Origin: Rhizobium indicum | GTDB lineage: Bacteria > Pseudomonadota > Alphaproteobacteria > Rhizobiales > Rhizobiaceae | NCBI RefSeq assembly: GCF_005862305.2 | Contig: NZ_CP054021.1 | Location: 3,761,501-3,825,500, forward strand | DNA length: 64,000 bases | Direction of reading: 5' to 3' | In this document: piece by piece, positions 17,918 through 64,000 of the stretch | How the letters are laid out: each line of letters opens with the position of its first letter | How positions within the stretch are numbered: position 1 is the stretch's first letter | Position numbers and translations under genes: made by a program | Notes under the pieces: model-generated | The model's input: only the letters and a program-made list of their open reading frames with translations | Databases searched by the model: none | What the model was told of the DNA's origin: nothing

Positions 17918-18835
17918 TTACATCTCGTACAGCACGTGCGTGGCTTTCACGGCGGCCGAGGCGCGGTTCTCGACGCCGAGCTTCACGTAAATCTGTTCGA
18001 GGTGTTTGTTCACCGTCCGCGCTGACAATCCCAATATTTCACCGATGTCGCGGTTGGCCTTGCCCTTGGCGATCCAGAGCAGCACTTCGGATTCGCGCTG
18101 GGTGAGCGAGAAGCGCTGGCGCAGCACCTCGTCGTCGCTCCGCTGATTGGCGGCGGTGAGGCGGAAGAGATATTCGTCAGGGCCGATTGCGCCGAGGAAG
18201 GCGAGCTGCAGCGCCGCCTGGCCGGCATGGGCGATCGAGATGATGCCGTCGCGCACCGCGGCGACGCGGTCGCGCATCCAGCCGGCGATATGGCGGACGA
18301 CGATTTCCATGCCGTCATCGCTGCCCATGGCGGCATTGACCAGGCGTGTCGCTTGCGGCGTTGACCAGTGGATGGCGCCGTCGCCCTTGACTGCCAGCAG
18401 ATGGCGGCCGGCTGCGTCGAGCGCCACGCGGGCGCTCTGGGCCGAGCGGGCATTGCGCAGATGGACGCGGATGCGGGCGCGCAGTTCGTCGATATTGATC
18501 GGCTTGCTGAGATAATCGACGCCGCCCGATTCCAGCGCGTGCACGACATGCTCGGTCTCGGTCAGGCCGGTCATGAAGATGACGGGCACCTGCGCCACCG
18601 CGGCATTCGCCTTCAGCCGGCGGCAGGTCTCGAAGCCGTCCATGCTGGGCATGACGGCGTCGAGCAGGATGAGATCGGGCGTGATGCGCTCGACGATACC
18701 AAGTGCCGCCGTGCCCGATGTGGCGATCAGCACGGAGAAGCCGGATTGTTCGAGCGCGTCGGTCATGAAGCCGAGTGCTTCGGCCGAGTCGTCGACGAGC
18801 AGAACGATGTCGCGGGGGAGGGCCGGCTCAGCCAA
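17918..18835 (-). CDS. LuxR-type response regulator paired with the permease-kinase
   Basis: A 305-residue regulator. Receiver domain 1-125 has the acidic pair Asp15-Asp16 (VLLVDDS), phosphoacceptor Asp59 (LILLDAVMP) and the KP lysine. A middle region of about 110 residues (AVKGDGAIHWSTPQATRLV...) resembles no domain I can name. The C-terminal LuxR HTH is LTQRESEVLLWIAKGKANRDIGEILGLSARTVNKHLEQIYVKLGV. The start is TTG at 18835 and overlaps the end of the kinase gene by 8 nt, so the two are co-translated and almost surely a cognate pair. Confidence 0.88.
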   Translation of the reverse strand: MAEPALPRDIVLLVDDSAEALGFMTDALEQSGFSVLIATSGTAALGIVERITPDLILLDAVMPSMDGFETCRRLKANAAVAQVPVIFMTGLTETEHVVHALESGGVDYLSKPINIDELRARIRVHLRNARSAQSARVALDAAGRHLLAVKGDGAIHWSTPQATRLVNAAMGSDDGMEIVVRHIAGWMRDRVAAVRDGIISIAHAGQAALQLAFLGAIGPDEYLFRLTAANQRSDDEVLRQRFSLTQRESEVLLWIAKGKANRDIGEILGLSARTVNKHLEQIYVKLGVENRASAAVKATHVLYEM

Positions 18836-21800
18836 TGGATTCCACCTTTTCGTCGAAGTCGTGCAGGAAGGTCATGAAGCCGGCGAGATCGAAGGCGGCG
18901 ACATAGGCGCGAAGTTCCTCCGTGAATGGCTGATTTGCCTCCACCTTGGCAAGGTCCGAAAGCTTGGCTTCGATGCCTCTGATATAGCCGATCTCGCCGA
19001 GCCGCAGCAATTCCTGCACATGGGCAGCACCTGGGCTCAGCATCGGCGCTTCGATCTTGACAGGAACGGCTGGCGTGGCATCGGCATAGATCCATGTCAG
19101 GCCAAGATGCAGGGCGAGCTTGTCGCGCAGCTGGCGGATGTCGACCGGCTTGCCGATCGCATCATTGTGGCTGTCGTCACTGTCGCTGAGAACGGCCGCG
19201 TCACCGATATTGGCCGAGAGCATCAGCACCGGTGCCGTCTGGCCGGCCTCGCGCAGACGCGAGACGAGCTGCCAGCCGTTCATGCCGGGCATCAGGATAT
19301 CGACGAGGAAAAGGTCCGGCATGATGCCCTCGATCAGCGTCAGGCATTCGCCGCCGCCTGCCGCCGTCAACACGATGAAATCGAGCGGCGCCAGGATCTC
19401 GCGCATCATCTCGCGGTGGTCCTCGTTGTCGTCGACGACGACGACCGTGCGGCGCGGGCCGTCATAACCGACGATGCGCTTCTCCTGCGGCGCTGCGGCC
19501 ACGGCGCGCGTGACGGCAGACAGCATCAGCCGGACGCGGAAGGTCGAGCCTTCGTCCTTCGCGCTTGAAACCGAGATCTCGCCCCCGAGCGTATTGGTCA
19601 GAAGCCGGGTGATGGTGAGGCCGAGGCCGAGCCCCGGCATCGGCCGCACGCTTTCGGCTTCACCGCGCTGGAAGGGTTCGTAAATACGGGGCAGGTCTTT
19701 CTCCGTGATGCCTCGGCCGGTATCGGCAACGGTAAAGGTCGCGACCTGGCTGCGATAGCCGACATCGAAGGTGACGCTGCCTTCGTCAGTGAACTTGATG
19801 GCATTGGAGAGCAGGTTGACGAGGATCTGGCGCAGGCGCTTTTCGTCGGTGCGGACGAATTGCGGCAAGGCCGGCGCGCGCTCATGGATGAAGGCAAGCC
19901 CCTTTGCCTGCGCCTGCGGGCGGAACATATCGACGATCTGGTCGAGAAAATCCTGGATGTTGATCTCGTTGGAATAGACCTGCAGGCGGCCGGCCTCGAT
20001 CTTCGAAATATCCAGCAGGCCGTCGATCAGGCCGGAGAGGTGTTCGGCGCTACGGCGGATGACCTTGATCGAGGATTGGCGCGGCGCCGGGATGGTCTCG
20101 TCGCGTTCGAGGATCTGGGCGTAGCCGAGCACGGCGTTCAGCGGCGTGCGTAATTCATGGCTGAGCCCGACGACGTAGCGGCTCTTGGCGCGGTTGGCGG
20201 CCTCGGCCGTCTCCTTGGCGTTTTGCAGGGCGGCGTCGGTCTTCTTGTGGGCGGCGATTTCCTTCAGCAGCAGCGTGTTCTGGCGTGAGGATTCCTCCTC
20301 GGCAACGACGCGGCTGTCATGGGCGAGCACATAGAACCAGCAGACGACGCCTGAGATCACCGAGAAGACGAAGAAGACGATGAGGATGGTGCGATTGACG
20401 ACCTCACCCGTCTCGGGCGAGGCGGAGGCGACCTGATGGGCGATCATCGCCAGGATTGCGCCGATGGCGGTCAATGCCAGCACGACGGCGATGCCGTAGC
20501 GGCCAAGGCGCGTCGCCAGCTTCCCCAGAATGGCTTCCGGCAGCAACGCCTTGGCGACGGTGCCGACCTGCGCGTTGAAACGGGCAGCCGGCTTGCACAT
20601 GTCGTGGCAGCGACTGTCGAGCGAGCAGCAGAGCGAGCAGATCGGCGCGGCATAGGCCGGGCACCAGGCCATGTCCTCCGGCTCGAACGGATGCTCGCAG
20701 ACCGAGCAGGTGATGTTCGCCAGGTTCTTCCAGCTCTGGCGCGGCTTGCGGGCGAGATAGAACTTGCCTTTCGTTGCCCAGGCGATGACAGGCGAGGCGA
20801 CCAGCGCAATGACCAGCGTAATATAGGGAGCGAGCGAGGCGGCGATCTCCCCGAAGGCGCCGAAATGGGCAATCAGCGACACCGTCGCCGACAGCGTCAT
20901 GGCGCCGAGGCCGACCGGGTTGATGTCGTAGAGGTGGGCACGCTTGAACTCGATGCCGGGAGGAGCCAGCCCCAGCGGCTTGTTGATGAAGAGATCGGCG
21001 GAGATCGTGCAGAGCCAGGCCATGGCGATGATCGAGAAGATGCCGAGCGTCTCCTCCAGCAGCCGGTAGATGCCGAGTTCCATCAAAAGCAGGGCGATTG
21101 CGACGTTGAAGACCAGCCAGATGACGCGGCCGGGATGGCTGTGGGTCAGCCGCGAGAAGAAGTTCGACCAGGCGAGCGAACCGGCATAGGCGTTCATCAC
21201 ATTGATCTTCAGCTGCGAGACGACGACGAAGGCGGCCATCAACAGCAGCGCGCCATTATGCCAGGGGACCATGTAGCCGAAGGCGGTCAGATACATCTGC
21301 GCCGGGTCGGCGGCGCGATCGAGGGGGACGCCCGAGGTGAAGGTCAGCACGACCAGGAAGGAGCCGGCAAGCAACTTCGGCGCGCCGATGATGACCCAGC
21401 CGGGCCCGGCGAGAAAGATCGCCAGGCGGTGGCGCCACTTGCGCTGCGGGTCCGGCGGCAGGAAGCGCAGGAAGTCGGCCTGTTCGCCGATCTGCGACAT
21501 CAGCGCCAGGATGACGGCGGAGGCCGCGCCGAACTCCACCAGATCGAATTCGGCGATGGTGCCGGGCGGACCGGAGGCATGGCGGATGCCGGCGAAGGCG
21601 CGCCAGAGATCGAATTTTTCCCAGTCCAACAGGGCGATGAAGATGAAGGGCAGGATATTCAGCACGATCCAGAAGGGCTGGGTCATCAGCTGGAACTTGC
21701 TGATCAGCCGTACGCCGTGCGTCACCAGCGGGATCACCATGACGGCGCTGATGATGTAGCCGATCCAGAGCGGGATGCCGAGGGTGAGCTCCAGCGCCCC

Positions 21801-22214
21801 GGACATGATCGATGCCTCGATCGCAAACAGCATGAAGGTGAAGCTCGCATAGATCAGCGAGGTGATGGTCGAGCCGATATAGCCGAAGCCCGCGCCACGC
21901 GTCAGAAGATCGATGTCGACGCCGTGGCGGATGGCGTAGCGGCTGATCGGCAGGCCGATCGCCAGCATGGCGATCGAGGCGACGATGATGGCGTAAAAGG
22001 CGTTGGTGGTGCCGTAGGAGAGGGTGATTGCGCCGCCGATCGCCTCCAGCGCCAGGAAGGAGATCGCGCCGATCGCGGTCTGCGAGATGCGCTGCGAGGA
22101 GAAATGCCGGGCGCTCTTGGCAGTGAAGCGCAGCGCGTAATCTTCCAGCGTCTGGTTGGCGACCCAGCGATTATATTCGCGTCTTACCGGAATGATGCGT
22201 TGGCGCGCTGCCAT
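18828..22214 (-). CDS. NCS1-family permease fused to hybrid histidine kinase
   Basis: A 1128-residue transporter-sensor fusion. Residues 1 to about 490 are a purine/cytosine (NCS1) permease with about 12 helices. A cysteine-rich linker follows (Cys503, 506, 518, 526, 529, 530, 536, 540), likely a metal site, then two helices (about 574-592 and 608-632). Next come the HisKA domain with His686 (SHELRTPLN), N box NLLSNAIKF, DTGRG and GLGLGL, a receiver with Asp972 (VDILMPG) and Lys1022, and a helical tail that could be a phosphotransfer-like end. The start at 22214 follows AAGGAAG. Analogous to CbrA (SLC5-kinase), but with a different transporter family. Ligand unknown; the urea/urease genes next door suggest a nitrogen compound. 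Confidence 0.9.
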   Translation of the reverse strand: MAARQRIIPVRREYNRWVANQTLEDYALRFTAKSARHFSSQRISQTAIGAISFLALEAIGGAITLSYGTTNAFYAIIVASIAMLAIGLPISRYAIRHGVDIDLLTRGAGFGYIGSTITSLIYASFTFMLFAIEASIMSGALELTLGIPLWIGYIISAVMVIPLVTHGVRLISKFQLMTQPFWIVLNILPFIFIALLDWEKFDLWRAFAGIRHASGPPGTIAEFDLVEFGAASAVILALMSQIGEQADFLRFLPPDPQRKWRHRLAIFLAGPGWVIIGAPKLLAGSFLVVLTFTSGVPLDRAADPAQMYLTAFGYMVPWHNGALLLMAAFVVVSQLKINVMNAYAGSLAWSNFFSRLTHSHPGRVIWLVFNVAIALLLMELGIYRLLEETLGIFSIIAMAWLCTISADLFINKPLGLAPPGIEFKRAHLYDINPVGLGAMTLSATVSLIAHFGAFGEIAASLAPYITLVIALVASPVIAWATKGKFYLARKPRQSWKNLANITCSVCEHPFEPEDMAWCPAYAAPICSLCCSLDSRCHDMCKPAARFNAQVGTVAKALLPEAILGKLATRLGRYGIAVVLALTAIGAILAMIAHQVASASPETGEVVNRTILIVFFVFSVISGVVCWFYVLAHDSRVVAEEESSRQNTLLLKEIAAHKKTDAALQNAKETAEAANRAKSRYVVGLSHELRTPLNAVLGYAQILERDETIPAPRQSSIKVIRRSAEHLSGLIDGLLDISKIEAGRLQVYSNEINIQDFLDQIVDMFRPQAQAKGLAFIHERAPALPQFVRTDEKRLRQILVNLLSNAIKFTDEGSVTFDVGYRSQVATFTVADTGRGITEKDLPRIYEPFQRGEAESVRPMPGLGLGLTITRLLTNTLGGEISVSSAKDEGSTFRVRLMLSAVTRAVAAAPQEKRIVGYDGPRRTVVVVDDNEDHREMMREILAPLDFIVLTAAGGGECLTLIEGIMPDLFLVDILMPGMNGWQLVSRLREAGQTAPVLMLSANIGDAAVLSDSDDSHNDAIGKPVDIRQLRDKLALHLGLTWIYADATPAVPVKIEAPMLSPGAAHVQELLRLGEIGYIRGIEAKLSDLAKVEANQPFTEELRAYVAAFDLAGFMTFLHDFDEKVESIG

Positions 22215-22393: not shown

Positions 22394-24298
22394 ATGTCTG
22401 TTTTAAGCCTTTGCCGTCTGAGCACTGCCCTCGTCTGCCTTCTTTCGATCGTGCCATCGCTTGCCAGCGCCGAGCAGGTAACAGTGGCGAAAGCTGCTTA
22501 TGCGGAAGCCGGAAACACCAACAAGCGCGGTGACGCCTGCTTCTCGACGGTGGACACCAACGCCGCCGTTCACCTCCTCTCCGGCTTCCTCGAAATCTGG
22601 ACCCCGCGCACGCCTTTCGTCGATGCGGGTGTCGAAGCCCCGGCCAAGGATAATTGCCCGGCGGTCACCAAGACGGATTGGGATGGTATTCCCGCCAGCA
22701 AGACCGACGGCCATATCGTCAACCAGGCCGTCCATGACGCCAACATCGGCTATGTCGTCAATGCGACACGGGCGCGGACGGCCGATCAGGCGGTCGCTGC
22801 CTATCTCGATGATCGGCGGGGCAAGAATGCCAGCATCGTCGATGGCCTCGGTCCGCTGACGGATGCCTGGAAGGCCGGCTCCAAGCAGACCACTACGATC
22901 ACCGAGGTGGCGGCCGACGCGACGACGGTCAAATATGACGACAAGGGCAACAATCGCGGTGCCGGCAGCAAGCCGGACGCGGAAAACAAGACCGATGCCA
23001 ACCCCGACATGGGCCTTGCAATCGACTTCATCATTGCTGCAAGCGGTGACGGCTCGACGGAGCCTGCCAAGCGCTATTTCAAATATGGCCGTCCCTACCG
23101 CTGGAGCCAGGACGTGTCGGTGGTGCCGACGCTGCAGCCCGCCAAGAGCGGCAAGCCGGTCGAGGACGGCGGTTTCCCGAGCGGGCATACGGCGGAAGCC
23201 TGGCGGGATGCGCTCGCCATGGCGTATCTCGTGCCGCAGCGCTTTCAGGAAATGATCACGCGCGCCAGCGAGCTGGGTGAAGACCGCATCCTCGCCGGCA
23301 TGCATTCTCCTCTCGACGTGATGGGCGGTCGGATGCTCGGAACGGCCACGGTCGTTTACAATCTGAACAAGGCCGACAATGCCGCGCTGAAGAGCGATGC
23401 CTACGCCCAAGCGCAGTCATGGCTCGTCGCCAAATCAGGCGTTGCGGATGCGGGCGCGCTCGAGGTTGCCGCCCAGGCGGCACCGCTGGCTACAGACCGT
23501 TTCGCCGATCATGACGCCAATCGCACCTACGTGCTGCAGCGCCTGAGCTATGGCCTGCCGACGATCCATGCGACCGATCAGCCGGCGCGCGTGCCGCAGG
23601 GCGCTGAAGCGCTTCTCGAAACGCGTCTGCCCTATCTGGACGGCGAGCAGCGCCGCGCCGTGTTGAAGACGACGGAGATCGCCTCCGGCTACCCGCTCCT
23701 TGACGATGCGGAAGGTTACGGCCGTCTTAATCTGTTTGCCGCCGCCGACGGTTACGGTGCGTTCGAACAGGACGTGACCGTGACGATGGACGCGGCAAAG
23801 GGCGGCTTCAATTCGATCGATACCTGGCGGAACGACATCACTGGCAAGGGCAGGCTGGTGAAGCGCGGCCAAGGCATCCTCGGGCTGTCAGGCGCAAACA
23901 GCTATGCCGGTGGCACCGTTCTGGAAGAGGGCGCGCTGGTGGCCGGCTCACCCTCGGCCTTCGGTACCGGCGGGCTGACGGTTAACGGTGGTTCGCTCGT
24001 TCTGGCGGCCGAAAAACCGTTGACCGTGAGTGGTGATTATCAGCAGTTCGCCAATGCCACGACGAAGCCGGCGCTGGGCGAAAACGGCGCGGGCACGCTG
24101 GTCGTCGAGGGCAAGGCGGCGCTGGCCGGCGACCTCGAGGTGACGCTTGCCGATGGTTATGCCCCGACGCCCGGAACCAAGATCGAAATCCTGAAGGCGA
24201 GTGCCGTGACCGGCACCTTCGGCAAGGTCACGGTCTCCGGCCACAAGGCGAGCCTCTCCTACGGCCCGACGTCAGTCACTTTAACGATCGACGGATAA
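22394..24298 (+). CDS. exported PAP2-type acid phosphatase with autotransporter repeat
   Basis: A 634-residue protein with a signal peptide (1-25, ending SLASA). The class A phosphatase/PAP2 motifs are present in order: KYFKYGRPYRW, PSGHT and DRILAGMHSPLDVMGGR. The C-terminal 130 residues contain an autotransporter-associated beta-strand repeat (GQGILGLSGANSYAGGTVLEEGALVAG), but there is no outer-membrane barrel after it. The start at 22394 gives the signal peptide. It is divergent from the permease-kinase. A CTGTCACATAA word at 22337-22347 could be half of a PHO box. Confidence 0.85.
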   Translation: MSVLSLCRLSTALVCLLSIVPSLASAEQVTVAKAAYAEAGNTNKRGDACFSTVDTNAAVHLLSGFLEIWTPRTPFVDAGVEAPAKDNCPAVTKTDWDGIPASKTDGHIVNQAVHDANIGYVVNATRARTADQAVAAYLDDRRGKNASIVDGLGPLTDAWKAGSKQTTTITEVAADATTVKYDDKGNNRGAGSKPDAENKTDANPDMGLAIDFIIAASGDGSTEPAKRYFKYGRPYRWSQDVSVVPTLQPAKSGKPVEDGGFPSGHTAEAWRDALAMAYLVPQRFQEMITRASELGEDRILAGMHSPLDVMGGRMLGTATVVYNLNKADNAALKSDAYAQAQSWLVAKSGVADAGALEVAAQAAPLATDRFADHDANRTYVLQRLSYGLPTIHATDQPARVPQGAEALLETRLPYLDGEQRRAVLKTTEIASGYPLLDDAEGYGRLNLFAAADGYGAFEQDVTVTMDAAKGGFNSIDTWRNDITGKGRLVKRGQGILGLSGANSYAGGTVLEEGALVAGSPSAFGTGGLTVNGGSLVLAAEKPLTVSGDYQQFANATTKPALGENGAGTLVVEGKAALAGDLEVTLADGYAPTPGTKIEILKASAVTGTFGKVTVSGHKASLSYGPTSVTLTIDG

Positions 24299-24374: not shown

Positions 24375-24390
24375 TACGTCAATCGACGTA
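24375..24390. promoter_or_regulatory. perfect palindrome before urtA
   Basis: TACGTC-AATC-GACGTA, 6-bp perfect arms, 94 nt before the urtA start in the 138-nt region between terminator and gene. It is a candidate operator, for instance for the LuxR-type regulator at 17918; no binding is shown by the sequence alone. Confidence 0.5.
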
Positions 24391-24483: not shown

Positions 24484-25776
24484 ATGAATCTCAGAACTAC
24501 TATTGCGGGCGCTGCACTCGGCGCCGTCATGGCGGCCTCGGCTGCCTTCAGCGGTGCGGTTGCCGCCGATGATACGATCAAGGTCGGCATTCTGCACTCG
24601 CTCTCCGGCACCATGGCCATCTCCGAGACCACGCTCAAGGACGCCATGCTGATGCTCATCGACGAGCAGAACAAGAAGGGCGGCCTTCTCGGCAAGAAGC
24701 TCGAGGCCGTCGTCGTCGACCCGGCTTCCGACTGGCCGCTGTTTGCCGAAAAGGCACGTGAGCTGATCCAGAAGGACAAGGTTGCCGCCGTATTCGGTTG
24801 CTGGACGTCCTCGTCGCGCAAGTCCGTTCTGCCGGTTTTCGAAGAGACCAACTCGATCCTCTTCTACCCGGTCCAGTATGAAGGCGAAGAGTCCTCGCGC
24901 AACATCTTCTACACCGGTGCTGCTCCGAACCAGCAGGCTATTCCTGCTGTCGACTACCTGATGGAAAAAGAAGGCGTCAAGCGCTTCGTTCTCGAAGGTA
25001 CGGACTACGTCTATCCGCGCACGACCAACAAGATTCTCGAGGCATACCTGATTTCGAAGGGTATTCCGAAAGAAGACATCATGACCAACTACACGCCGTT
25101 CGGCTTCTCCGATTGGCAGACCGAAGTTTCCAAGATCAAGGAATTCGGTTCGGCTGGCAAGAAGACCGCCGTCGTCTCTACGATCAACGGCGATGCCAAC
25201 GTTCCGTTCTACAAGGAACTGGGTAACAAGGGCATCAAGGCAACCGACATCCCCGTCGTCGCCTTCTCGGTTGGCGAAGAAGAGCTTGCCGGCCTCGACA
25301 CCAAGCCGCTCGTCGGCCATCTCGCTGCCTGGAACTACTTCGAATCGGTCGAAAGCTCGGCCAACAAGAAGTTCATCAAGGACTGGCACGCTTTCACCAA
25401 GAACGACAAGCGCGTGACGAACGACCCGATGGAAGCTGCGTATATCGGCTTCAACGCATGGGTTAAGGCCGTCCAGGCTGCCGGCACGACCGATACCGAC
25501 AAGGTTCTCGACACCATCATCGGCGTTAGCGTTCCGAACCTCTCCGGCGGTTATGCGACCGTGATGCCGAACCACCACATCACCAAGCCGGTGCTGATCG
25601 GTGAAATCCAGGCCGACGGCCAGTTCGAAATCGTCCAGCAGACACCTGCCGTCGTCGGCGACGAATGGTCAGATTTCCTGCCTGACTCCAAGGATCTGAT
25701 CTCCGATTGGCGCAAGCCGATGTCCTGCGGCAACTTCAACGTCGCTACGGGCAAGTGCGGTGGCAAGGGCTCCTGA
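24484..25776 (+). CDS. urtA: urea ABC transporter substrate-binding protein UrtA
   Basis: A 430-residue periplasmic binding protein. Signal peptide 1-27 (ending AVAA), then IKVGILHSLSGTMAISETTLKDAMLMLIDEQNKKGG and the UrtA hallmark PVQYEGEESSRNIFYTGAAPNQQAIPA. It binds urea for the UrtBCDE importer. AAGAAGAGGGG lies shortly before the ATG. It is first in urtABC-urtD-orf-urtE. Confidence 0.95.
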   Translation: MNLRTTIAGAALGAVMAASAAFSGAVAADDTIKVGILHSLSGTMAISETTLKDAMLMLIDEQNKKGGLLGKKLEAVVVDPASDWPLFAEKARELIQKDKVAAVFGCWTSSSRKSVLPVFEETNSILFYPVQYEGEESSRNIFYTGAAPNQQAIPAVDYLMEKEGVKRFVLEGTDYVYPRTTNKILEAYLISKGIPKEDIMTNYTPFGFSDWQTEVSKIKEFGSAGKKTAVVSTINGDANVPFYKELGNKGIKATDIPVVAFSVGEEELAGLDTKPLVGHLAAWNYFESVESSANKKFIKDWHAFTKNDKRVTNDPMEAAYIGFNAWVKAVQAAGTTDTDKVLDTIIGVSVPNLSGGYATVMPNHHITKPVLIGEIQADGQFEIVQQTPAVVGDEWSDFLPDSKDLISDWRKPMSCGNFNVATGKCGGKGS

Positions 25777-25890: not shown

Positions 25891-27513
25891 ATGTATCGCG
25901 CCATAAAGATTTTCCTCATCACGGTTTGCCTGACATTTTCGGGCGTGATGATCTCGAGCGAAGTCCAGGCCCAGGACGATATCCACGTGCTCATCGACGC
26001 GCTCGGCGTCGGCGATTTCCCGGAACGCGAAGTGGCCATCAAGGCGCTGGTCGCTTCCAAGGACCAGCATGTCAGCCAGATCCTGCAGCAGTTGAGCGAC
26101 GGCCTTCTCTACGTCAATTCAGATGGCGGCCCGGTTCTCCTCCAGGGTGGTACCGATGACGAACCAACCTATTCCGATCCGATCACCGGCGAAGCCGCTG
26201 CCGATGTCGATCCGGATCTGATGACGAAGGTCAAGATCAACAACGCGCTACGCGGCGTCATCGGCGCCGCCACGAGCCAGCTGACGCTGATGAGCCCGGA
26301 CCGTTCCGCGCGACTTGCCGCGGCGCAGGGCCTTCTGAAAGATGCCGATCCCGACAATCTCGACCTGCTGAACACGGCGCTTGCGGCCGAAAAAGACGCT
26401 GAGATCAAGAATACGATGGAAGCGGCGCGCGCAGTGCTGCTGCTCAAGACGGATGCGAGCGTCGAAGACAAGAAGGCTGCGATCGATACGATCGCGGCGC
26501 GCGGCAATCGCGATGCGCTGACCATCCTCACGACCACACTCGAAACCGCGCCGGACGACCTGAAGCCGGCGATCCAGGCGGATATCAGCTCCATCAATCG
26601 CAGCCTGGCGCTGTGGGATATCGTCCAGAACATCTGGTACGGATTGTCTCTCGGCTCGGTACTGCTGCTTGCCGCGATCGGCCTTGCCATCACCTTCGGC
26701 GTCATGGGCGTCATCAACATGGCGCATGGCGAAATGGTGATGATCGGCGCCTACACCACCTATGTGGTGCAGGAATACATTACCTCCGCCTTTCCTGAAC
26801 TTGCCGATTATTCGCTGGCCTTTGCCGTGCCTGCGGCCTTCGTCTTTACCGGCTTCGTCGGTCTGGTGATCGAGCGCGCCGTCATCCGCTATCTCTACGG
26901 CCGGCCGCTCGAAACGCTGCTCGCCACCTGGGGCGTGTCGCTCATCCTGCAGCAGGCGGTGCGCAGCATCTTCGGCCCGACCAACCGCGAGGTCCGCAAT
27001 CCGACCTGGATGTCCGGCGTCTTCGATCTCGGCGGGCTCTCCATCACCTGGAACCGACTGTGGATCATCGTCTTTTCGATGGTGGTCTTTGTGGCGCTGC
27101 TCCTGCTGCTCAAGCGGTCCGCCTTCGGCCTGCAGATGCGTGCCGTTACGCAGAACCGGCGCATGGCGTCGTCGATGGGCATCCGCACCGGCTGGGTCGA
27201 TGCCTTCACCTTCGCGCTCGGCTCGGGCATTGCCGGCATCGCCGGCGTGGCGCTCAGCCAGATCGACAATGTCTCGCCGAACCTCGGTCAATCCTACATC
27301 ATCGACAGCTTCATGGTCGTCGTCTTCGGCGGTGTCGGCAATCTCTGGGGTACACTGGTCGGTGCACTGTCGCTCGGCGTCGTCAACAAGTTCCTCGAGC
27401 CCTTCGCCGGCGCCGTGCTCGGCAAGATCCTGGTGCTCGTCCTCATCATTCTCTTCATCCAGAAGCGTCCCCGCGGGCTCTTCGCACTCAAAGGAAGGGC
27501 GGTGGAAGCATGA
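25891..27513 (+). CDS. urtB: urea ABC transporter permease UrtB
   Basis: A 540-residue permease. After a signal-like N-terminus comes a soluble helical region of about 230 residues with HEAT-like pairs (VGDFPEREVAIKALVA, SVEDKKAAIDTIAARGNRDALTIL), presumably periplasmic, then a LivH-type membrane domain (IWYGLSLGSVLLLAAIGLAITFGVMGVINMAHGEMVMIGAYTTY). This long form is usual for UrtB. The stop overlaps the urtC start (ATGA). Confidence 0.94.
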   Translation: MYRAIKIFLITVCLTFSGVMISSEVQAQDDIHVLIDALGVGDFPEREVAIKALVASKDQHVSQILQQLSDGLLYVNSDGGPVLLQGGTDDEPTYSDPITGEAAADVDPDLMTKVKINNALRGVIGAATSQLTLMSPDRSARLAAAQGLLKDADPDNLDLLNTALAAEKDAEIKNTMEAARAVLLLKTDASVEDKKAAIDTIAARGNRDALTILTTTLETAPDDLKPAIQADISSINRSLALWDIVQNIWYGLSLGSVLLLAAIGLAITFGVMGVINMAHGEMVMIGAYTTYVVQEYITSAFPELADYSLAFAVPAAFVFTGFVGLVIERAVIRYLYGRPLETLLATWGVSLILQQAVRSIFGPTNREVRNPTWMSGVFDLGGLSITWNRLWIIVFSMVVFVALLLLLKRSAFGLQMRAVTQNRRMASSMGIRTGWVDAFTFALGSGIAGIAGVALSQIDNVSPNLGQSYIIDSFMVVVFGGVGNLWGTLVGALSLGVVNKFLEPFAGAVLGKILVLVLIILFIQKRPRGLFALKGRAVEA

Positions 27514-28673
27514 TAACGGCCTTCCTTCTCCGATCACTCGATCGCAAGATCGTCATTGCCATCGCCCTCCTGCTTCTGGTCGCCGTCCTTGTGCCGGTCC
27601 TGAACCTGATGACGGGGCCGACCAATCCGCTGCACGTGCCGACTTATATCATGTCGCTGTTCGGCAAGTATCTGACCTATGCGCTGCTGGCGCTGGCGCT
27701 CGATCTCGTCTGGGGCTTCTGCGGCATCCTCTCGCTCGGCCACGGTGCCTTCTTTGCGCTCGGCGGCTATGCGATGGGCATGTATCTGATGCGCCAGATC
27801 GGCACGCGTGGCAGCTATGGAGACCCTGTTCTGCCCGACTTCATGGTGTTTCTGAACTGGAAGGATTTGCCCTGGTTCTGGTACGGCTTCAACCATTTCT
27901 GGTTTGCGGCGCTGATGGTGCTCGTCGTGCCCGGCCTGCTGGCCTTCGTCTTCGGCTGGTTTGCCTTCCGCTCACGCGTCAACGGCGTCTATCTCTCGAT
28001 CATCACCCAGGCGATGACCTACGCGCTGCTACTGGCCTTCTTCCGCAACGACATGGGCTTCGGCGGCAATAACGGCCTTACCGATTTCAAGGACATTATC
28101 GGTTTCAACGTCCAGGCTGACGGCACGCGTGCAGTCCTCTTTGCGGCAACTGCGATCTTCCTTGCTCTATCGCTGCTGCTCGCCTCGGCGATCGTGCGCT
28201 CGAAGTTCGGCAAGGTACTGGTCGGCGTGCGCGATGCGGAAAGCCGCACACGCTTCCTCGGTTACCGCGTCGAGCACTTCAAGCTCTTCACCTTCGTCGT
28301 CTCGGCGATGATGGCTGGTATTGCCGGTGCGCTCTACGTGCCGCAGGTCGGCATTATCAATCCCGGCGAATTCGCGCCTGCCAATTCGATCGAAGTCGTC
28401 ATCTGGACGGCGGTGGGCGGGCGGGCGACGCTGATCGGCCCGATCATCGGCGCGATCCTCGTCAACGGCGGCAAGACGATCTTCACCGGCCTCTTCCCGG
28501 AGTTCTGGCTGTTTGCGCTGGGCGGTCTCTTCGTCGCCGTCACGCTGTTCCTGCCCAAGGGTGTCGTCGGCACGATTGCGCAATATCTCGGCAAGCGGAA
28601 GGTCGTTTCCAAGGCTGCTCCGCCGGCAGCTGAGGAAGACGGTATCCAGCCGAAAATCCAGGCAGCGGAGTGA
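27510..28673 (+). CDS. urtC: urea ABC transporter permease UrtC
   Basis: A 387-residue LivM-type permease: LALDLVWGFCGILSLGHGAFFALGGYAMGMYLMRQIG at the front, the family insert YGDPVLPDFMVFLNWKDLPWFW, and the coupling loop VGVRDAESRTRFLGY. The start at 27510 is within the urtB stop. Confidence 0.94.
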   Translation: MITAFLLRSLDRKIVIAIALLLLVAVLVPVLNLMTGPTNPLHVPTYIMSLFGKYLTYALLALALDLVWGFCGILSLGHGAFFALGGYAMGMYLMRQIGTRGSYGDPVLPDFMVFLNWKDLPWFWYGFNHFWFAALMVLVVPGLLAFVFGWFAFRSRVNGVYLSIITQAMTYALLLAFFRNDMGFGGNNGLTDFKDIIGFNVQADGTRAVLFAATAIFLALSLLLASAIVRSKFGKVLVGVRDAESRTRFLGYRVEHFKLFTFVVSAMMAGIAGALYVPQVGIINPGEFAPANSIEVVIWTAVGGRATLIGPIIGAILVNGGKTIFTGLFPEFWLFALGGLFVAVTLFLPKGVVGTIAQYLGKRKVVSKAAPPAAEEDGIQPKIQAAE

Positions 28674-28678
28674 GCGCC

Positions 28679-29434
28679 ATGATCCCCGACGTCAAACCCA
28701 CCAGCGTGCTTTATCTCAACGGCGTCTCGGTTTCCTTCGATGGCTTCAAGGCACTGAATTCGCTGTCGATTGTCATCGAACCCGGCGAACTTCGCGCCAT
28801 CATCGGCCCGAACGGCGCCGGCAAGACGACGATGATGGATATCATCACCGGCAAGACCAGGCCCGATGAGGGCGAGGTGTTCTTCAACGGCACGATCGAT
28901 CTCACCAAGAAGGATGAAGCCGATATCGCCCAGCTCGGCATCGGCCGCAAATTCCAGAAGCCGACCGTCTTCGAAAGCCATACGGTGTGGGACAATCTGG
29001 AGCTGGCGCTGAACCGTCGTCGCGGCGTGTTCTCGACGCTGTTCTACCGGCTTTCGGGCGAGGACAAGGCGCGCATCGAGGAGATCCTCGAAACGGTGCG
29101 GCTGACGCATCGCCGTGACGAATTCGCTGCCAATCTCTCGCACGGGCAGAAGCAATGGCTGGAGATCGGCATGCTCTTGGCGCAGGAGCCGAAGCTGCTG
29201 CTGGTCGACGAACCGGTGGCCGGCATGACGGATGCGGAGACGGCGGAAACGGCGATCCTGCTCAAGGATATCGCCAAGACGCGCTCGGTCGTCGTCGTGG
29301 AACATGACATGGGCTTCATCCGAGACCTCGGCGTCAAGGTGACCTGCCTTGCTGAGGGATCGGTGCTGGCCGAAGGGTCGATCGATTTTGTGAGTTCGGA
29401 TCCGAAGGTCATCGAGAACTATTTGGGGCGGTGA
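28679..29434 (+). CDS. urtD: urea ABC transporter ATPase UrtD
   Basis: A 251-residue ATPase: Walker A GPNGAGKT, GRKFQKPTVFESHTVWDNLELAL (Q-loop and UrtD-typical segment), signature LSHGQKQWLEIGMLL, Walker B LLLVDEPVAGMTD and H-loop VVVEHDMGFI. A GTG at 28670 overlapping the urtC stop is an alternative; GGAGTGAG favours ATG 28679. Confidence 0.94.
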   Translation: MIPDVKPTSVLYLNGVSVSFDGFKALNSLSIVIEPGELRAIIGPNGAGKTTMMDIITGKTRPDEGEVFFNGTIDLTKKDEADIAQLGIGRKFQKPTVFESHTVWDNLELALNRRRGVFSTLFYRLSGEDKARIEEILETVRLTHRRDEFAANLSHGQKQWLEIGMLLAQEPKLLLVDEPVAGMTDAETAETAILLKDIAKTRSVVVVEHDMGFIRDLGVKVTCLAEGSVLAEGSIDFVSSDPKVIENYLGR

Positions 29435-29510
29435 TGAATGCAACTTACAGGCTTGAACCTGACAAAAGAACGAGCTCTAAAACGAGCGGGTTTTATTGTG
29501 GGGTTTCATC

Positions 29511-30029
29511 ATGGCTTTTCTCGGTATTCTGGTCGTGGCGATCAGCGGCGCGGTCGTCTGGTATTGGCGTTTGAAAATGGTGCGTGAGGCGGGAAACGAG
29601 ATCATCGATTCCGTCGAGCGTATGCGGGGCGCTTATAAGCGCGGAAAGTTCCGCAAGCAGGCCGAGGCAGCGCCGCTGGCCTCGATCGCCGATCCGGCGA
29701 TTGCGGCGGTGGCCTTCCTCTTCTGCCTTGCCAAGGAAAAGCCGATCTATTTCGACGCTGCGAAGGATGTCGTTCGCAATCGCATGAAGGGCATCATCCG
29801 GCCGGGCGATATGCAAGAGGTGCTGGTTTTCGGCGAGTGGGCGTCTAAGAACGTCACCAGTCCCGAAGATCCGATCCGACGGTTCCGGCCTCTTTGGATA
29901 GAGGCGCTCGACATGCAAGAGCGTCAGCAATTGATCGGCATTGCCGAGGAAGTGGCCGAGGTCGGTGGTGAGAGAACGAAGGAACAGGAGCACGCCCTGC
30001 AAATGCTGAGGCGCATGCTGATGAACTGA
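29511..30029 (+). CDS. unknown membrane-anchored protein inside the urt operon
   Basis: A 172-residue protein with an N-terminal transmembrane helix (about 2-20, AFLGILVVAISGAVVWYW) and a helical cytoplasmic domain with a tellurite-resistance-B-like feel (FLFCLAKEKPIYFDAAKDVVRNRMKG), though I cannot assign the family. It separates urtD from urtE, which normally adjoin, with 76 nt before it and 18 nt after it. Same strand and codon use as the neighbours, so probably co-transcribed. Function unknown. Confidence 0.65.
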   Translation: MAFLGILVVAISGAVVWYWRLKMVREAGNEIIDSVERMRGAYKRGKFRKQAEAAPLASIADPAIAAVAFLFCLAKEKPIYFDAAKDVVRNRMKGIIRPGDMQEVLVFGEWASKNVTSPEDPIRRFRPLWIEALDMQERQQLIGIAEEVAEVGGERTKEQEHALQMLRRMLMN

Positions 30030-30047
30030 TGGGGAATGGGTGAACGC

Positions 30048-30743
30048 ATGCTGACAGTCGAAAACGCAAACCTGCATTATGGTGCCGCTCAGGCGCTGCG
30101 CGGCATCTCGATCACAGCGGAGATGGGCAAGATCACCTGCGTGCTGGGGCGTAACGGCGTGGGGAAGAGTTCTCTTCTGCGCGCCGTTACCGGCCAGCAT
30201 CCGCTGTCGGCGGGTACCGTCACCTTCAACGATACAAAGCTCAACGGCCTGCCGCCCTTTGCCCGTGCCAAGCAGGGCATCGGCTATGTGCCGCAGGGGC
30301 GCGAAATCTTCCCGCTACTGACAGTCAAGGAAAATCTCGAAACCGGCTTTGCTCCGCTTGGCCGCCGCGACCGCAACATTCCCGATGACATCTTCAGTCT
30401 CTTCCCGGTGCTGAAGTCGATGTTGTCACGTCGCGGCGGCGATCTTTCCGGCGGGCAGCAGCAGCAACTGGCGATCGGGCGCGCCATGGTGACGCGGCCG
30501 AGGATTCTCGTGCTCGACGAGCCGACCGAGGGCATTCAGCCATCGATTATCAAGGATATCGGCCGGGCGATCCGCTATCTGCGTGACTCCACAGGCATGG
30601 CGATCCTGCTCGTCGAGCAATATCTCGATTTCTGCCGCGAGCTTGCCGACTATGTCTACATCATGGACCGCGGTGAAATCGTGCATGAAGGGCTTGCCGA
30701 GACGCTGGATACGCCGGAGGCCCGCCGCCACCTGACTGTCTGA
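30048..30743 (+). CDS. urtE: urea ABC transporter ATPase UrtE
   Basis: A 231-residue LivF-type ATPase: MLTVENANLHYGAAQALRGISI, Walker A GRNGVGKSS, signature LSGGQQQQLAIGRAMV, Walker B ILVLDEPTEGIQPSII and VEQYLDF. The start at 30048 fits the family N-terminus; ATG 30036 adds four residues. It closes the urea transporter set, with the urease genes starting about 150 nt later. Confidence 0.94.
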   Translation: MLTVENANLHYGAAQALRGISITAEMGKITCVLGRNGVGKSSLLRAVTGQHPLSAGTVTFNDTKLNGLPPFARAKQGIGYVPQGREIFPLLTVKENLETGFAPLGRRDRNIPDDIFSLFPVLKSMLSRRGGDLSGGQQQQLAIGRAMVTRPRILVLDEPTEGIQPSIIKDIGRAIRYLRDSTGMAILLVEQYLDFCRELADYVYIMDRGEIVHEGLAETLDTPEARRHLTV

Positions 30744-30891
30744 CCGGCAGATGCCGCATTTTGCAGCAGAGGGCGCGGCGCCTGGAAAACCTTCCGCCGC
30801 CAAAGGCCTGCTCGGAGCGGCATAGGAATTGCTTGCTTTCCGCTATCTGCGCGCTTGAATGAAAACCAAGGGCGCGACCGAAAGGGACGAT

Positions 30892-31713
30892 ATGACGATT
30901 GCGGCGGCAGGCACGAGACCGCAAAGAGCGGAAGGGCGCGGGCATCTGGCGGCAAAGCTGTTCGATGGCCGCACGCGCATCCGTGAACTCTATCAGGAGG
31001 GGGCAGCGAAGATCCGCCTGCCCGATACCTTCGACGCCTCCATGGAAGCCGTCATCATCAATACCGCTGGCGGTTTGACAGGCGGCGATCGGATGGATTG
31101 GAGCGTTGATGCCGGCGCCGGCACGCGCATCGACGTCACCACTCAGGCTTGCGAGAAGATCTACAAGGCATCGGCCGGCATCGCCGAGGTGGCGACCAGC
31201 ATCAAGGTCGGAGCCCAAGCCCGCGTCGACTGGCTGCCGCAGGAAACGATCCTCTTCGACCGGGCTGCACTTTTTCGCCGGCTGGATGTCGATCTTGACG
31301 AGAGCGCCCAACTTCTAGCTGTCGAAGCCGTGCTGCTCGGCCGCAAGGCGATGGGTGAGGCGGTGGTATCAGGGCTGTTCCGCGATCGTTGGCGCATCCG
31401 CCGCTCGGGTCAACTGATCCACGCCGAAGAACTCAGGCTTTCCGAAGGTGTGGCGGCACTGGCGGCGCGGCAGGCCGTGCTCGGCGGACAGGTGGCCTTT
31501 GCGACGTTGCTTTATGCCGGACCGCTTTCAGAAGCCTATCTTGGCAAAGTCCGGCCGCTCGTCGAAGGATCGATGGGCGGCGCGAGCGCTTGGAATGGCA
31601 AGCTCGTCGTCCGCCTTGCAGCAGCCGACGGCTTCTCACTCAGAAAAATCCTGATCCCCGTCATTTCCGCCTTGCGCAATGGTGCGCCTGTGCCGAAAGT
31701 CTGGAATCTATGA
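30892..31713 (+). CDS. ureD: urease accessory protein UreD
   Basis: A 273-residue protein (UreD/UreH). Typical segments are [40 protein letters not shown] and [22 protein letters not shown]. UreD docks on apo-urease and, with UreF and UreG, forms the nickel-delivery complex. ATG 30859 would add 11 residues; AAAGGGA favours 30892. It is first in the urease operon. Confidence 0.93.
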
Positions 31714-31746
31714 ACGTAAGCATTCGGTCAAGCAGATGGACAAGCG

Positions 31747-32049
31747 ATGAACCTCACTCCGAGAGAAAAAGACAAGCTGTTGATTTCGATGGCAGCGATG
31801 GTGGCGCGGCGGCGGTTGGAGCGCGGCGTCAAGCTGAACTATCCCGAAGCGATCGCGCTGATCAGCGACTTCGTCGTCGAAGGCGCCCGCGACGGCCGCC
31901 CGGTTGCCGAGTTGATGGAAGCCGGCGCCCATGTGATCGGCCGCTCCCAGGTGATGGAGGGCATTGCCGAGATGATCCACGACGTGCAGGTGGAGGCGAC
32001 GTTTCCTGATGGAACCAAGCTCGTCACCGTGCACGAGCCGATCAGGTGA
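31747..32049 (+). CDS. ureA: urease gamma subunit UreA
   Basis: The 100-residue gamma subunit: [35 protein letters not shown], ending [14 protein letters not shown], the complete family consensus and usual length. It combines with UreB and UreC in the (alpha-beta-gamma)3 urease. Confidence 0.97.
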
Positions 32050-32059
32050 GGAGATAGGA

Positions 32060-32311
32060 ATGCTCGAGCTCAGGCCCAACTGCGAATGCTGCGACAAGGA
32101 TCTGCCGCCTGATAGCACCGAGGCACGGATCTGCACCTATGAATGCACCTTCTGCACCGATTGCGTGGACGGCGTGCTGAAGGGTGTCTGCCCGAACTGC
32201 GGCGGCAATCTCGTCGCAAGACCCATTCGGCCGGCAGCCATGCTCGCCAAAAATCCGGCGTCGACGAAGCGTGTGCTGAAAGCCGAGGGCTGCGCGCCCA
32301 AGGCGGCTTAA
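32060..32311 (+). CDS. DUF1272 zinc-ribbon-like protein between ureA and ureB
   Basis: An 83-residue protein with [32 protein letters not shown] and [12 protein letters not shown]: ten cysteines in its first 55 residues, several in C-x2-C pairs, so a probable metal-binding ribbon. DUF1272 has no established function. It lies 10 nt after ureA and 10 nt before ureB, so it is an integral part of the operon. Confidence 0.85.
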
Positions 32312-32321
32312 GGAGGACAAG

Positions 32322-32627
32322 ATGATTCCAGGCGAGATCATTGCCGCAAGCGGCGACATCGAACTGAATGCCGGCGCGCCGACAGTGACGCTGGAGGTTT
32401 CCAATACGGGCGATCGGCCGGTGCAGGTCGGCAGCCACTATCATTTCGCCGAGACCAATGCAGGGCTTTCCTTCGATCGTGCGGCGGCGCATGGCAAGCG
32501 GCTCGATATCCCGGCGGGGACGGCGGTGCGCTTCGAACCGGGGCAGACGCGCTCCGTGACGCTGATCCCGCTTTCCGGCAAGCGCGAGGTCTACGGCTTC
32601 CGCCAGTTGGTGATGGGCAAGCTTTAA
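32322..32627 (+). CDS. ureB: urease beta subunit UreB
   Basis: The 101-residue beta subunit: [45 protein letters not shown], then [13 protein letters not shown]. Family length and pattern are complete. AAGGAGG precedes the ATG. Confidence 0.97.
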
Positions 32628-32649
32628 GAACAATAGTCTGGAGAAACGC

Positions 32650-33057
32650 ATGCGCTTGAATATCTGCCTCGTCGGGGCGGCGATGCTGCTGACGGCAGGT
32701 GCTGCCTCTGCTGAGGATATCGATTGCAACAGTCCCAAGACGCAATCGGACATGACCGGCTGCGAGGCAGCGCGCCACGAGACTGCCGACAAGGCTTTGA
32801 ATGCGCAATACAAGAAGACCCGCGCCGCCCTGGCAGCGATCGACAAGGACCTGGATGGCGACATGAAGGGCGCGGAGCAGGCGCTGGTCAAAGCGCAGCG
32901 CGCCTGGATCGATTATCGCGACGCCGAATGCGACGCCTTCGGCTTTCAGGCCCGCGGCGGCACGATGGAGCCGATGCTGGTCGCCGGATGCCTCGCCAAC
33001 ATTACAGACAAACGCACGAAAGAGCTGAAAGAGCTCGAAGATACGATGGGCAACTAA
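32650..33057 (+). CDS. LprI-like (DUF1311) exported protein
   Basis: A 135-residue protein with a signal peptide (1-21, ending ASA) and the DUF1311/LprI pattern: CNSPKTQSDMTGCEAARHETADKALNAQYKKTRAAL followed by AQRAWIDYRDAECDAF, with four cysteines likely in disulfides. Family members include periplasmic lysozyme inhibitors, but the role here is unknown. It lies in the urease operon between ureB and ureC. Confidence 0.85.
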   Translation: MRLNICLVGAAMLLTAGAASAEDIDCNSPKTQSDMTGCEAARHETADKALNAQYKKTRAALAAIDKDLDGDMKGAEQALVKAQRAWIDYRDAECDAFGFQARGGTMEPMLVAGCLANITDKRTKELKELEDTMGN

Positions 33058-33058
33058 G

Positions 33059-33697
33059 GTGATCAGGACAATCATGATCCTCGGCAATGGCGACGTCGGA
33101 GAGGCAGAGGCGGGTGTCATCGATGCCGCCGATTTCGTCATCCGCTTCAATGATTGCCGCTCCTATGGCGCCGGCGGCAGCCGCACGGATGCCGTTGCGG
33201 TCTGCAACACCGGCAGGCCGGCAAAGGCGATGCTCGGTTCGCGTGAGTGGCGCGCCCATCCGGGTGTGGTGTCGGCCGGTGAAATCTGGAGCGTGCGCGA
33301 CCCGGAAAAATTCGCTGCGATGCGGGCGCCGCTTGCCGTCTCGCATCCGGAACTCGACGATTTCTGCGACGACTATACCGCTGAGTTCAGCGCCTTCTGC
33401 GCAGACACCGGCAAAAGGCACGTCGTCATCGACAAGGCGGTTCACGAGGCCGTCGATGCCTCGCTTTCGGCCTTTGCTCCTTCGCCCTATGTCGTGCCGA
33501 GCAGCGGTATGGTCGTCATTGCCGAGGTGCTGAACAGATATGCCGAGGCCGAGGTGACGCTTGCCGGCTTCGGCCACGTCGGCTGGGAATGGCACCCGTT
33601 TTCAGCCGAACGACAGCTTGTCGATAGCTATATTGCCGCTGGCCGCCTCAAGCGGCTCGGCGGAAAAACACTTGTCTCTTCCTCCCAAGGAGCCTGA
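33059..33697 (+). CDS. urease-operon protein resembling glycosyltransferase family 29
   Basis: A 212-residue protein of a type often labelled urease operon accessory protein in rhizobia. The start MILGNGDVG and VIRFNDCRSYGAGGSRTDAVAVCNTG resemble the sialyltransferase-like (GT29) L-motif with its RFN signature. The latter half has VPSSGMVVIAEVLNRY and LAGFGHVGWEWHPFSAER. No activity is established. Start is GTG 33059 right after the previous stop; ATG 33074 has the better ribosome site (AGGA at six nt). Confidence 0.75.
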   Translation: MIRTIMILGNGDVGEAEAGVIDAADFVIRFNDCRSYGAGGSRTDAVAVCNTGRPAKAMLGSREWRAHPGVVSAGEIWSVRDPEKFAAMRAPLAVSHPELDDFCDDYTAEFSAFCADTGKRHVVIDKAVHEAVDASLSAFAPSPYVVPSSGMVVIAEVLNRYAEAEVTLAGFGHVGWEWHPFSAERQLVDSYIAAGRLKRLGGKTLVSSSQGA

Positions 33698-33700
33698 TAG

Positions 33701-35413
<1,713 letters not shown>

Positions 35414-61030: not shown

Positions 61031-62344
61031 TTACTCCGCCGCTTGGCGGGCCATCGGGTTGTTCGGGTGCGTCGTCCAGTTGGCGTAGTTGGGGTCAACG
61101 ACGCGGCCAGTGCGTTTGTCGAGGGTGCCGGCGGGAAGCTGCTCCATGGTGATGCAGTTCTCGACCGGGCAGACGCTGACGCAGAGATTGCAGCCGACGC
61201 ATTCCTCGTCCATCACCTCGAAATGGCGAACGCCATCGACGAAGTTGGTGATCGCCTGGTGCGAGGTGTCCTCGCAGGCGATGTAGCAGCGGCCGCATTT
61301 GATGCAGGCGTCCTGGTCGATCTTCGCCTTGGCGATATAGTTGAGGTTCAGATATTGCCAGTCGGTGACGTTGGGCACGGCGCGGCCGGTGATATCTTCG
61401 AGGCTGCGATGGCCCTTTTCGTCCATCCAGTCGGAGAGGCCAGTGATCATCTCCTGGACGATCTTGAAACCGTAGGTCATCGCCGCCGTGCAGACCTGGA
61501 CGTTGCCGGCGCCGAGCACGAGGAATTCGGCCGCGTCGCGCCAGGTGGTGATGCCGCCGATGCCCGAGATCGGCAGGCCATAGGTTTCAGGATCGCGGGC
61601 GATCTCGGCCACCATGTTGAGCGCGATCGGCTTTACCGCCGGGCCGCAATAACCGCCATGGCTGCCCTTGCCGCCGACCGTCGGGTTGGGGGCGAAGTTG
61701 TCGAGATCGACGGAGACGATCGAATTGATCGTGTTGATCAGCGAGACGGCATCGGTGCCGCCGGCCTTGGCGGCGCGGGCGGGGCGGCGGATATCGCTAA
61801 TGTTGGGCGTCAGCTTGGTGATGACGGGCATGCGGGTGTACTGCTTGCACCAGCGCACGACCATCTCGATATACTCAGGCACCTGGCCGACCGCGGAACC
61901 CATGCCGCGCTCCGACATGCCGTGCGGACAGCCGAAATTAAGCTCGATGCCGTCGGCGCCGGTCTCTTCAACCAACGGCAGGATCGCCTTCCAGGCCTCT
62001 TCCTCGCAGGGCACCATGATCGAGGCGATCAGCGCCCGGTCCGGCCAGTTCATCTTCACCTGCTTCATTTCCCGCAGGTTGGTATAGAGGTCGCGGTCGG
62101 TGATGAGCTCGATGTTGTTCAAACCGAGCAGGCGGCGGTCGGCGCCCCAGATCGCGCCGTAGCGCGGGCCGTTGACGTTGACGACGGGCGGGCCTTCCTC
62201 GCCCAGCGTCTTCCAGACCACGCCGCCCCAGCCGGCCTTGAAGGCGCGCTCGACGTTGTAGGCCTTGTCGGTCGGCGGCGCAGACGCCAGCCAGAACGGG
62301 TTCGGGGATTTGATGCCGACGAAATTATTGCGGAGATCAGCCAT
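61031..62344 (-). CDS. preA: NAD-dependent dihydropyrimidine dehydrogenase subunit PreA
   Basis: A 437-residue flavoprotein: FMN-binding TIM barrel like dihydroorotate dehydrogenase (NPFWLASAPPTDKAYNVERAFKAGWGGVVWKTLG, IELNFGCPHGMSERGMGSAVGQ with the active cysteine), then two 4Fe-4S sites (CIKCGRCYIACEDTSH and CVGCNLCVSVCPVENC). With PreT it reduces uracil and thymine. It follows preT after 15 nt. Confidence 0.95.
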   Translation of the reverse strand: MADLRNNFVGIKSPNPFWLASAPPTDKAYNVERAFKAGWGGVVWKTLGEEGPPVVNVNGPRYGAIWGADRRLLGLNNIELITDRDLYTNLREMKQVKMNWPDRALIASIMVPCEEEAWKAILPLVEETGADGIELNFGCPHGMSERGMGSAVGQVPEYIEMVVRWCKQYTRMPVITKLTPNISDIRRPARAAKAGGTDAVSLINTINSIVSVDLDNFAPNPTVGGKGSHGGYCGPAVKPIALNMVAEIARDPETYGLPISGIGGITTWRDAAEFLVLGAGNVQVCTAAMTYGFKIVQEMITGLSDWMDEKGHRSLEDITGRAVPNVTDWQYLNLNYIAKAKIDQDACIKCGRCYIACEDTSHQAITNFVDGVRHFEVMDEECVGCNLCVSVCPVENCITMEQLPAGTLDKRTGRVVDPNYANWTTHPNNPMARQAAE

Positions 62345-62359
62345 TGTTCATTCTCCCCT

Positions 62360-63721: not shown

Positions 63722-63781
63722 TGAAGTTCCCTCATTATTGGTAAACGGCCTGTGAGGGAAAGCGTAACTCAGGTTTAAAAA

Positions 63782-63797
63782 TTTATCAAACGGTAAA
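63782..63797. promoter_or_regulatory. RutR-like operator before preT
   Basis: On the minus strand TTTACCGTTTGATAAA, 61 nt before the preT start. It agrees with the site at 53335-53350 at 13 of 16 positions. An extra ATTGGTAAAC word, identical to part of that site, lies at about 63737-63746. The remaining 200 nt to the window end show no gene I can support. Confidence 0.55.
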
Positions 63798-64000
63798 ATT
63801 TTTACGATTTTCTCTTGTGGCCTCCCAAGTAATGCACTGTTTTCGTTAGGAGAATTTACCCGACGGTGATGGGTGAAATGACTGGGTGTTCGACACGAGA
63901 AAGGCATCCGAAAAAAGATTCAAAAAAGTCGAATTTTTTGTTGGCGGCAGGGAACCAAAGTTTGATGTCGTCGTTATTGCGATATCCGGATGGTGATCGC

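Follow-up and report, generated by a model that had tools for sequence, protein, structure and literature searches.

An NCS1-fold permease fused to a hybrid histidine kinase: a putative receptor for urea or small carboxamides

Urea and small amides serve as important sources of nitrogen. In the stretch of Rhizobium indicum DNA analyzed here (the window, 64,000 nucleotides), a permease is fused to a hybrid histidine kinase next to genes for urea uptake and urease, which raises the question of what such a protein senses and which genes it controls. The kinase and its partner regulator consist of the following parts:

17918..18835, minus strand: LuxR/NarL-type response regulator, 305 aa, TTG start (receiver, residues 11-123; GerE, residues 243-298; Pfam)
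18828..22214, minus strand: hybrid sensor kinase, 1128 aa, ATG start at 22214
20745..22151, minus strand: NCS1-fold permease (sensor) domain, residues about 22-490 (AF2 model, fold search, hhalign)
20595..20708, minus strand: eight-cysteine linker, residues 503-540 (alignment of family loci)
20298..20510, minus strand: two further long helices, residues 569-639
19989..20186, minus strand: HisKA, residues 677-742, with His686 (Pfam)
19521..19850, minus strand: HATPase_c, residues 789-898 (Pfam)
19116..19445, minus strand: receiver, residues 924-1033, with Asp972 (Pfam)

The Pfam scan of the window thus recovered a hybrid two-component arrangement, HisKA, HATPase and REC in the kinase plus a neighboring REC-GerE regulator. 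His686 and Asp972 are where the first-pass annotation had placed them, and the LuxR-type regulator is coupled to the kinase as it had proposed, the TTG start lying inside the end of the kinase gene and overlapping its stop codon. A regulator match adjoins the kinase in 155 of the 161 family loci collected (see below). The closest in-frame start of the regulator overlaps the kinase stop at 139 of these two-gene loci, comes after it at 12 and is not close by at 4; the start codons in the family loci are ATG (112), GTG (24) and TTG (15). Just one match in the window's own genome covers the whole kinase protein.

The earlier assignment of the sensor to NCS1-type carriers was borne out by fold and by profile homology. 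The Pfam scan gave no direct match to PF02133 in the sensor domain, and the sensor profile found no match among PDB sequences. CodB and Mhp1 were the best matches of the AF2 model of the sensor in the fold search, with 13-18% identity in the structural alignments, and hhalign aligned the sensor with a set of stand-alone NCS1 permeases, the first member of which matches PF02133, at 99.8% over 488 columns. The single NCS1 sequence of the same genome scored 73.7% against the sensor profile, in a partial alignment only. Alignment and fold search show the NCS1 core kept in full, and, in a set of 25 sensors sharing 54-81% identity with the query, column identity averages 69%. Lys336 in TM8 is shared by all 156 labeled loci (five unlabeled sensors were left out). 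In our sequence-level alignment, as distinct from a residue-wise superposition, it aligns with Ser312 of Mhp1, which we take to be a Na+ ligand; judged from this substitution, the sensor domain probably works without Na+. All eight linker cysteines are likewise present in 156 of 156 labeled loci, and stand-alone NCS1 permeases carry a related CxxC..CxxC tail. The AF2 model of the isolated linker has a pLDDT of 70 and a pTM of 0.49. Its best PDB matches were mostly zinc fingers (PHD, RING, FYVE and ZZ), none of them significant.

CbrA, CrbS (MxtR), RpuS and PrlS are fusions of SLC5 carriers with kinases; two of them, CrbS and PrlS, have a hybrid kinase that works with a LuxR-type regulator (PMC9100948, PMC7918813). 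The window protein shares with these kinases an N-terminal carrier domain fused to a kinase, and the analogy drawn in the first-pass annotation was apt as to this design. It differs from them in the NCS1 fold of its carrier, in the eight-cysteine linker where STAC sits, and in its urea or amide partner genes (the SLC5/STAC kinases deal with acetate, pyruvate or histidine). The Pfam scan of the kinase gave no SSF hit at E up to 1, NCS1 structures being best in the fold search, no PAS domain, and no STAC hit, the region in question being the cysteine linker. Given the NCS1 fold, the lack of SSF and PAS hits and the different linker, the window kinase would work like the SLC5/STAC kinases but belongs outside them. 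Ks-Amt5, an Amt carrier-kinase fusion that senses ammonium, is comparable by its description in PMC5764959, as a transporter of a nitrogen compound converted to a kinase sensor; it differs in its Amt carrier domain and ammonium ligand. Compared with Mhp1 and CodB, the window protein has a fused kinase, a lysine at the inferred Na+ site and no direct PF02133 match. In the AmiC/AmiR system, small amides control amidase genes, AmiC being a soluble binding protein and its partner an antiterminator; such control of amidase genes by small amides is the point of likeness to what is proposed for the kinase family. Genes for AmiR/ANTAR and Peripla_BP_5 proteins adjoin not the kinase but two stand-alone NCS1 relatives. 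One of these, a permease with a CxxC tail (a PF02133 relative, 29% identity over 227 residues), lies beside hydantoinase A and B and AmiR/ANTAR and Peripla_BP_5 (UrtA/AmiC-like) proteins in the region L188:2296-10727; the other, a similar permease (L187), adjoins nitrilase-family, AmiR/ANTAR and Peripla_BP_5 proteins.

In a search of 5.8 billion proteins, at least 8000 clusters were scored, every one of those listed being significant across the sensor. The window's genus has the sensor in all 40 genomes searched; it is present in 84 of 297 genomes in the order and in 52 of 398 in the phylum, excluding hits weaker than E 1e-100, which are stand-alone permeases or fragments (89 of 297 and 63 of 398 with these included). 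The sensor of Rhizobium johnstonii 3841 (L116) is 100% identical. Among plasmid records, 542 match at E 1e-5, 342 of them from Klebsiella, and 523 cover at least 80% of the query. A literature search found no paper on an NCS1-kinase, which is weak evidence of absence, subscription papers being mostly outside its coverage, nor any on a carrier-type two-component receptor for urea or small amides. The NCS1-kinase family is apparently common but undescribed.

For the analysis of gene neighborhoods, we compiled 161 sensor loci, namely, one set of 80, another of 75, and 6 plasmid loci. The 80 are the best-scoring 80 of 594 and lean to Rhizobiales; the 75 come from 80 stretches chosen for spread, the remaining 5 of which held stand-alone permease hits or none. 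The sensor sequences are distinct in 160 of 161 cases, many being close relatives. Besides kinase and regulator, 16 reference genes, and later 7 more, were tallied. The neighbors in the window are as follows:

24484..25776, plus strand: urtA, urea ABC substrate-binding protein (TIGR03407 above cut-off)
25891..27513, plus strand: urtB, with an N-terminal extension of about 245 aa (TIGR03409 above cut-off)
27513..28673, plus strand: urtC, start approximate (TIGR03408 above cut-off)
28670..29434, plus strand: urtD (TIGR03411 above cut-off)
30036..30743, plus strand: ABC ATPase in the urtE position (ABC_tran; named from position)
30859..35413, plus strand: urease region
30859-31713, plus strand: ureD
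31747-32049, plus strand: ureA (gamma)
32322-32627, plus strand: ureB (beta)
33701-35413, plus strand: ureC (alpha)

Several further features accompany these genes. A PAP2 phosphatase with a passenger-associated repeat (autotransporter-like) is encoded between the kinase and urtA (22394-24298, plus strand); this gene is also found in L065, L066, L070, L072 and L116 and is inverted in Devosia (L109). The UrtB extension (25891-26630, plus strand) precedes the permease domain and is absent from the amide-type UrtB of Azospirillum (308 aa). A 177-aa protein with no Pfam match is encoded between urtD and the ATPase in the urtE position (29496-30029, plus strand), and a DUF1272 protein between ureA and ureB (32009-32311, plus strand).

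Urea or amide systems are in view at 156 of the 161 loci, and urtA at 55% identity or more at 143. Urea-type urtA is found at 92 loci, 43 of them with urease in view and none with fmdA; amide-type urtA at 52, of which 48 have fmdA (accompanied by amiE in 20), one a Klebsiella-type formamidase, three neither, and none urease. The 17 loci at which no urtA was called comprise seven with urease, five with fmdA and five with no partner, the last group being an Arthrobacter stand-alone protein and four kinase loci, of which three are short or cut stretches. By annotation, the Azospirillum locus holds urtABCDE, fmdA and an aliphatic amidase; that of Methylosinus, urtABCDE and urease; that of Thioclava, urtABCDE beyond the regulator, on its far side; and a Klebsiella plasmid, urtABCDE and formamidase, without urease in the 30-kb stretch. 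In Dechloromonas aromatica, according to a table in PMC2907700, urtA adjoins genes for a kinase of 1131 aa and a receiver protein of 308 aa, which resemble the pair described here in size and position. The proposed tie to nitrogen genes thus held when neighbors were tabulated over the 161 loci, the neighborhood with such genes being conserved. The pyrimidine catabolism genes that the first-pass annotation had noted in the window are present, as a PreA and a PreT-like ORF at 61031-63907, but lie about 39 kb from the kinase locus and have no operator under 3 mismatches; PreA and PreT relatives occur at 0 of 161 loci, as do relatives of the genome's own PF02133 permease, and a hydantoinase A/B relative at one (L151). 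Given these partners, the ligand is likely urea or a small carboxamide.

The intergenic region before urtA contains a candidate site for the regulator:

24375..24390, strand not applicable: putative regulator operator TACGTCAATCGACGTA, a perfect dyad ending 93 bases before the urtA ATG

This is the sole copy of the pattern TACGTC-N4-GACGTA under 3 mismatches in the window; those with 3 mismatches number 13, about as many as expected by chance. The 7-2-7 TAC...GTA form is that of NarL-family sites, which fits the GerE domain of the regulator. The exact dyad TACGT-N6-ACGTA occurs in 38 of 64 non-redundant kinase-urtA intervals (26 of 29 urea, 12 of 35 amide), and in 20 shuffles of the intervals no dyad was common to more than 3. 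Among all 100 kinase-urtA intervals, 66 have TACGTC-N4-GACGTA at 0-1 mismatch, 7 at 2, 3 at 3 and 24 none; shuffled intervals give about 1 in 100 at 2 mismatches or fewer and 7 more at 3. Across the 3.23 Mb of the 161 loci, copies with 0-1 mismatch number 109, and each is found no more than 500 bp before urtA (97), fmdA (7) or the kinase (5); for the wider TACGY-N6-RCGTA, 133 of 135 copies are in those positions (shuffled sequence gives 4 copies). Of the 144 kinase-linked urtA loci, 111 have a site with at most 2 mismatches before urtA, namely, 87 of the 92 urea-type and 24 of the 52 amide-type loci; loci of the Rhizobium/Sinorhizobium kind, checked singly, have it at 0-2 mismatches in 16 of 16 cases. 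Among kinase-linked loci with UrtA 70-86% identical, 66 of 68 have the site at 2 mismatches or fewer, compared with 0 of 30 urtA promoters from kinase-less genomes of the same order (UrtA 75-84% identical). Of 80 genomes, 41 gave a total of 42 urtA matches, the best 30 of which supplied these promoters; a direct search of the 30 genomes found no kinase sensor, only weak stand-alone permease hits in 2.

The main operator is missing from 33 of the 144 urtA loci; 17 of these, 11 of them Bradyrhizobium, have an exact TACGC-N6-GCGTA instead, and 16 have neither form. No residue of the recognition helix was found to covary cleanly with the TACGT and TACGC variants (60 T-type and 12 C-type loci). The site is also absent from the seven urease-only loci and the five with REC-less kinases. 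In the window's own genome, the pattern occurs at 5 places with 0-1 mismatch versus 11 for a reversed control pattern, and the 40 genus genomes contain 16 perfect copies versus 15 for the control, with no enrichment in either comparison. As genome-wide copies are not above control, the operator is supported instead by where it lies, by its conservation and by the comparison with kinase-less genomes. By these measures, TACGTC-N4-GACGTA is a strong putative operator tied to the presence of the kinase, and its occurrence before urtA is new here. Weak sigma-54 matches number 27 in the window (26.8 expected), none of them before urtA. Of the 16 perfect genus copies, 6 are at the kinase and 10 at one other conserved place. 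This second copy (L231:1501-1516; G000:C1:242007) has the same 16 bases in 10 genus genomes with changed flanks; it lies between the ends of a small lipoprotein-like ORF and another small ORF, has no tRNA or Rfam match, and adjoins no evident target gene.

We consider it likely that the kinase is a transporter-derived two-component receptor that responds to urea in this clade and to small amides in others and drives the urt and hydrolase genes. The NCS1-fold domain would bind urea or a small amide, probably without Na+, and its movement would pass through the cysteine linker and the two extra helices to His686 of the kinase. Phosphate could then move from His686 to Asp972, to Asp59 of the co-translated NarL-type regulator, or to both, and the phosphorylated regulator would bind the dyad 93 bases before urtA and turn on urtABCDE and the urease genes behind it, assuming activation and a single urt-ure transcript. 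The first-pass annotation had instead favored a nucleobase, allantoin or hydantoin ligand, which would make the urea link one of downstream catabolism. The closeness of the fold to CodB and Mhp1 fits that proposal, as does the PF02133 relative beside hydantoinase A and B at L188. Nonetheless, we regard it as highly improbable: the partners are urt with urease, or urt with formamidase or aliphatic amidase; the near-perfect operators lie only before these genes or the kinase; and the counts of PreA/PreT and hydantoinase relatives given above speak against it, allantoin genes being outside the set sought. To our knowledge, purine breakdown does not lead into formamide or acetamide systems.

Two other explanations accept the same regulon. 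What the kinase reads might be UrtA, flux through Urt or a nitrogen signal in the cytoplasm, such as intracellular urea, leaving the permease domain as a structural relic. This would suit the presence of urtA in view of most kinases and the finding that CbrA without its carrier domain still signals (PMC7918813, a review, and PMC9100948); the strong conservation of the sensor, and its occurrence on REC-less kinases at five loci with fmdA but no urtA in view, make it unlikely. Alternatively, and compatibly with the receptor reading, the permease domain might be a working transceptor that also imports urea or an amide. The fully retained NCS1 core allows for this, and the carrier domain of CbrA transports histidine (PMC7918813); the conserved lysine at the inferred Na+ site, and the precedent of Ks-Amt5, a sensor that binds without translocating according to PMC5764959, leave transport possible but doubtful. 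If the receptor reading is true, another APC-fold carrier family, beside SLC5, was recruited as a kinase sensor, with a cysteine linker of its own; the operator makes the regulon directly testable.

A tree built from 81 sensors requires 6 changes of the urea label (26.3 when shuffled) and 7 of the amide label (26.2 when shuffled); so few changes indicate that the type of transporter and the hydrolase switched in concert on more than one occasion. Urea/urease partners characterize the main Rhizobiales clade, a clade outside the order (f86, f128), the loci L158, L173 and L177, and L148 and L154. Residues that track the label (327, 340, 402 and others; five unlabeled sensors excluded) do not shift alike across the separate origins and are no more than leads. 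Such natural urea/amide switches would serve the mapping of specificity. We lean, if only slightly, toward a broader scheme, in which Na+-independent urea/carboxamide receptors would have arisen across Pseudomonadota from a CxxC-tailed NCS1 permease and switched between amide and urea in parallel under one NarL-type operator code.

The amide-type kinase, urtABCDE and formamidase of the Klebsiella plasmid (L145; conjugative, IncFIB/IncFII) are flanked by IS elements; the regulator match there was found in the DNA and is missing from the gene table. The same sensor is borne by a REC-less kinase at L184, L185, L228, L229 and L230, all with fmdA nearby and no urtA called, which marks the sensor as a movable module. 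At L185 and L229, the two of these loci examined, genes for a receiver-HisKA-HATPase protein and an OmpR-type regulator come after the REC-less kinase.
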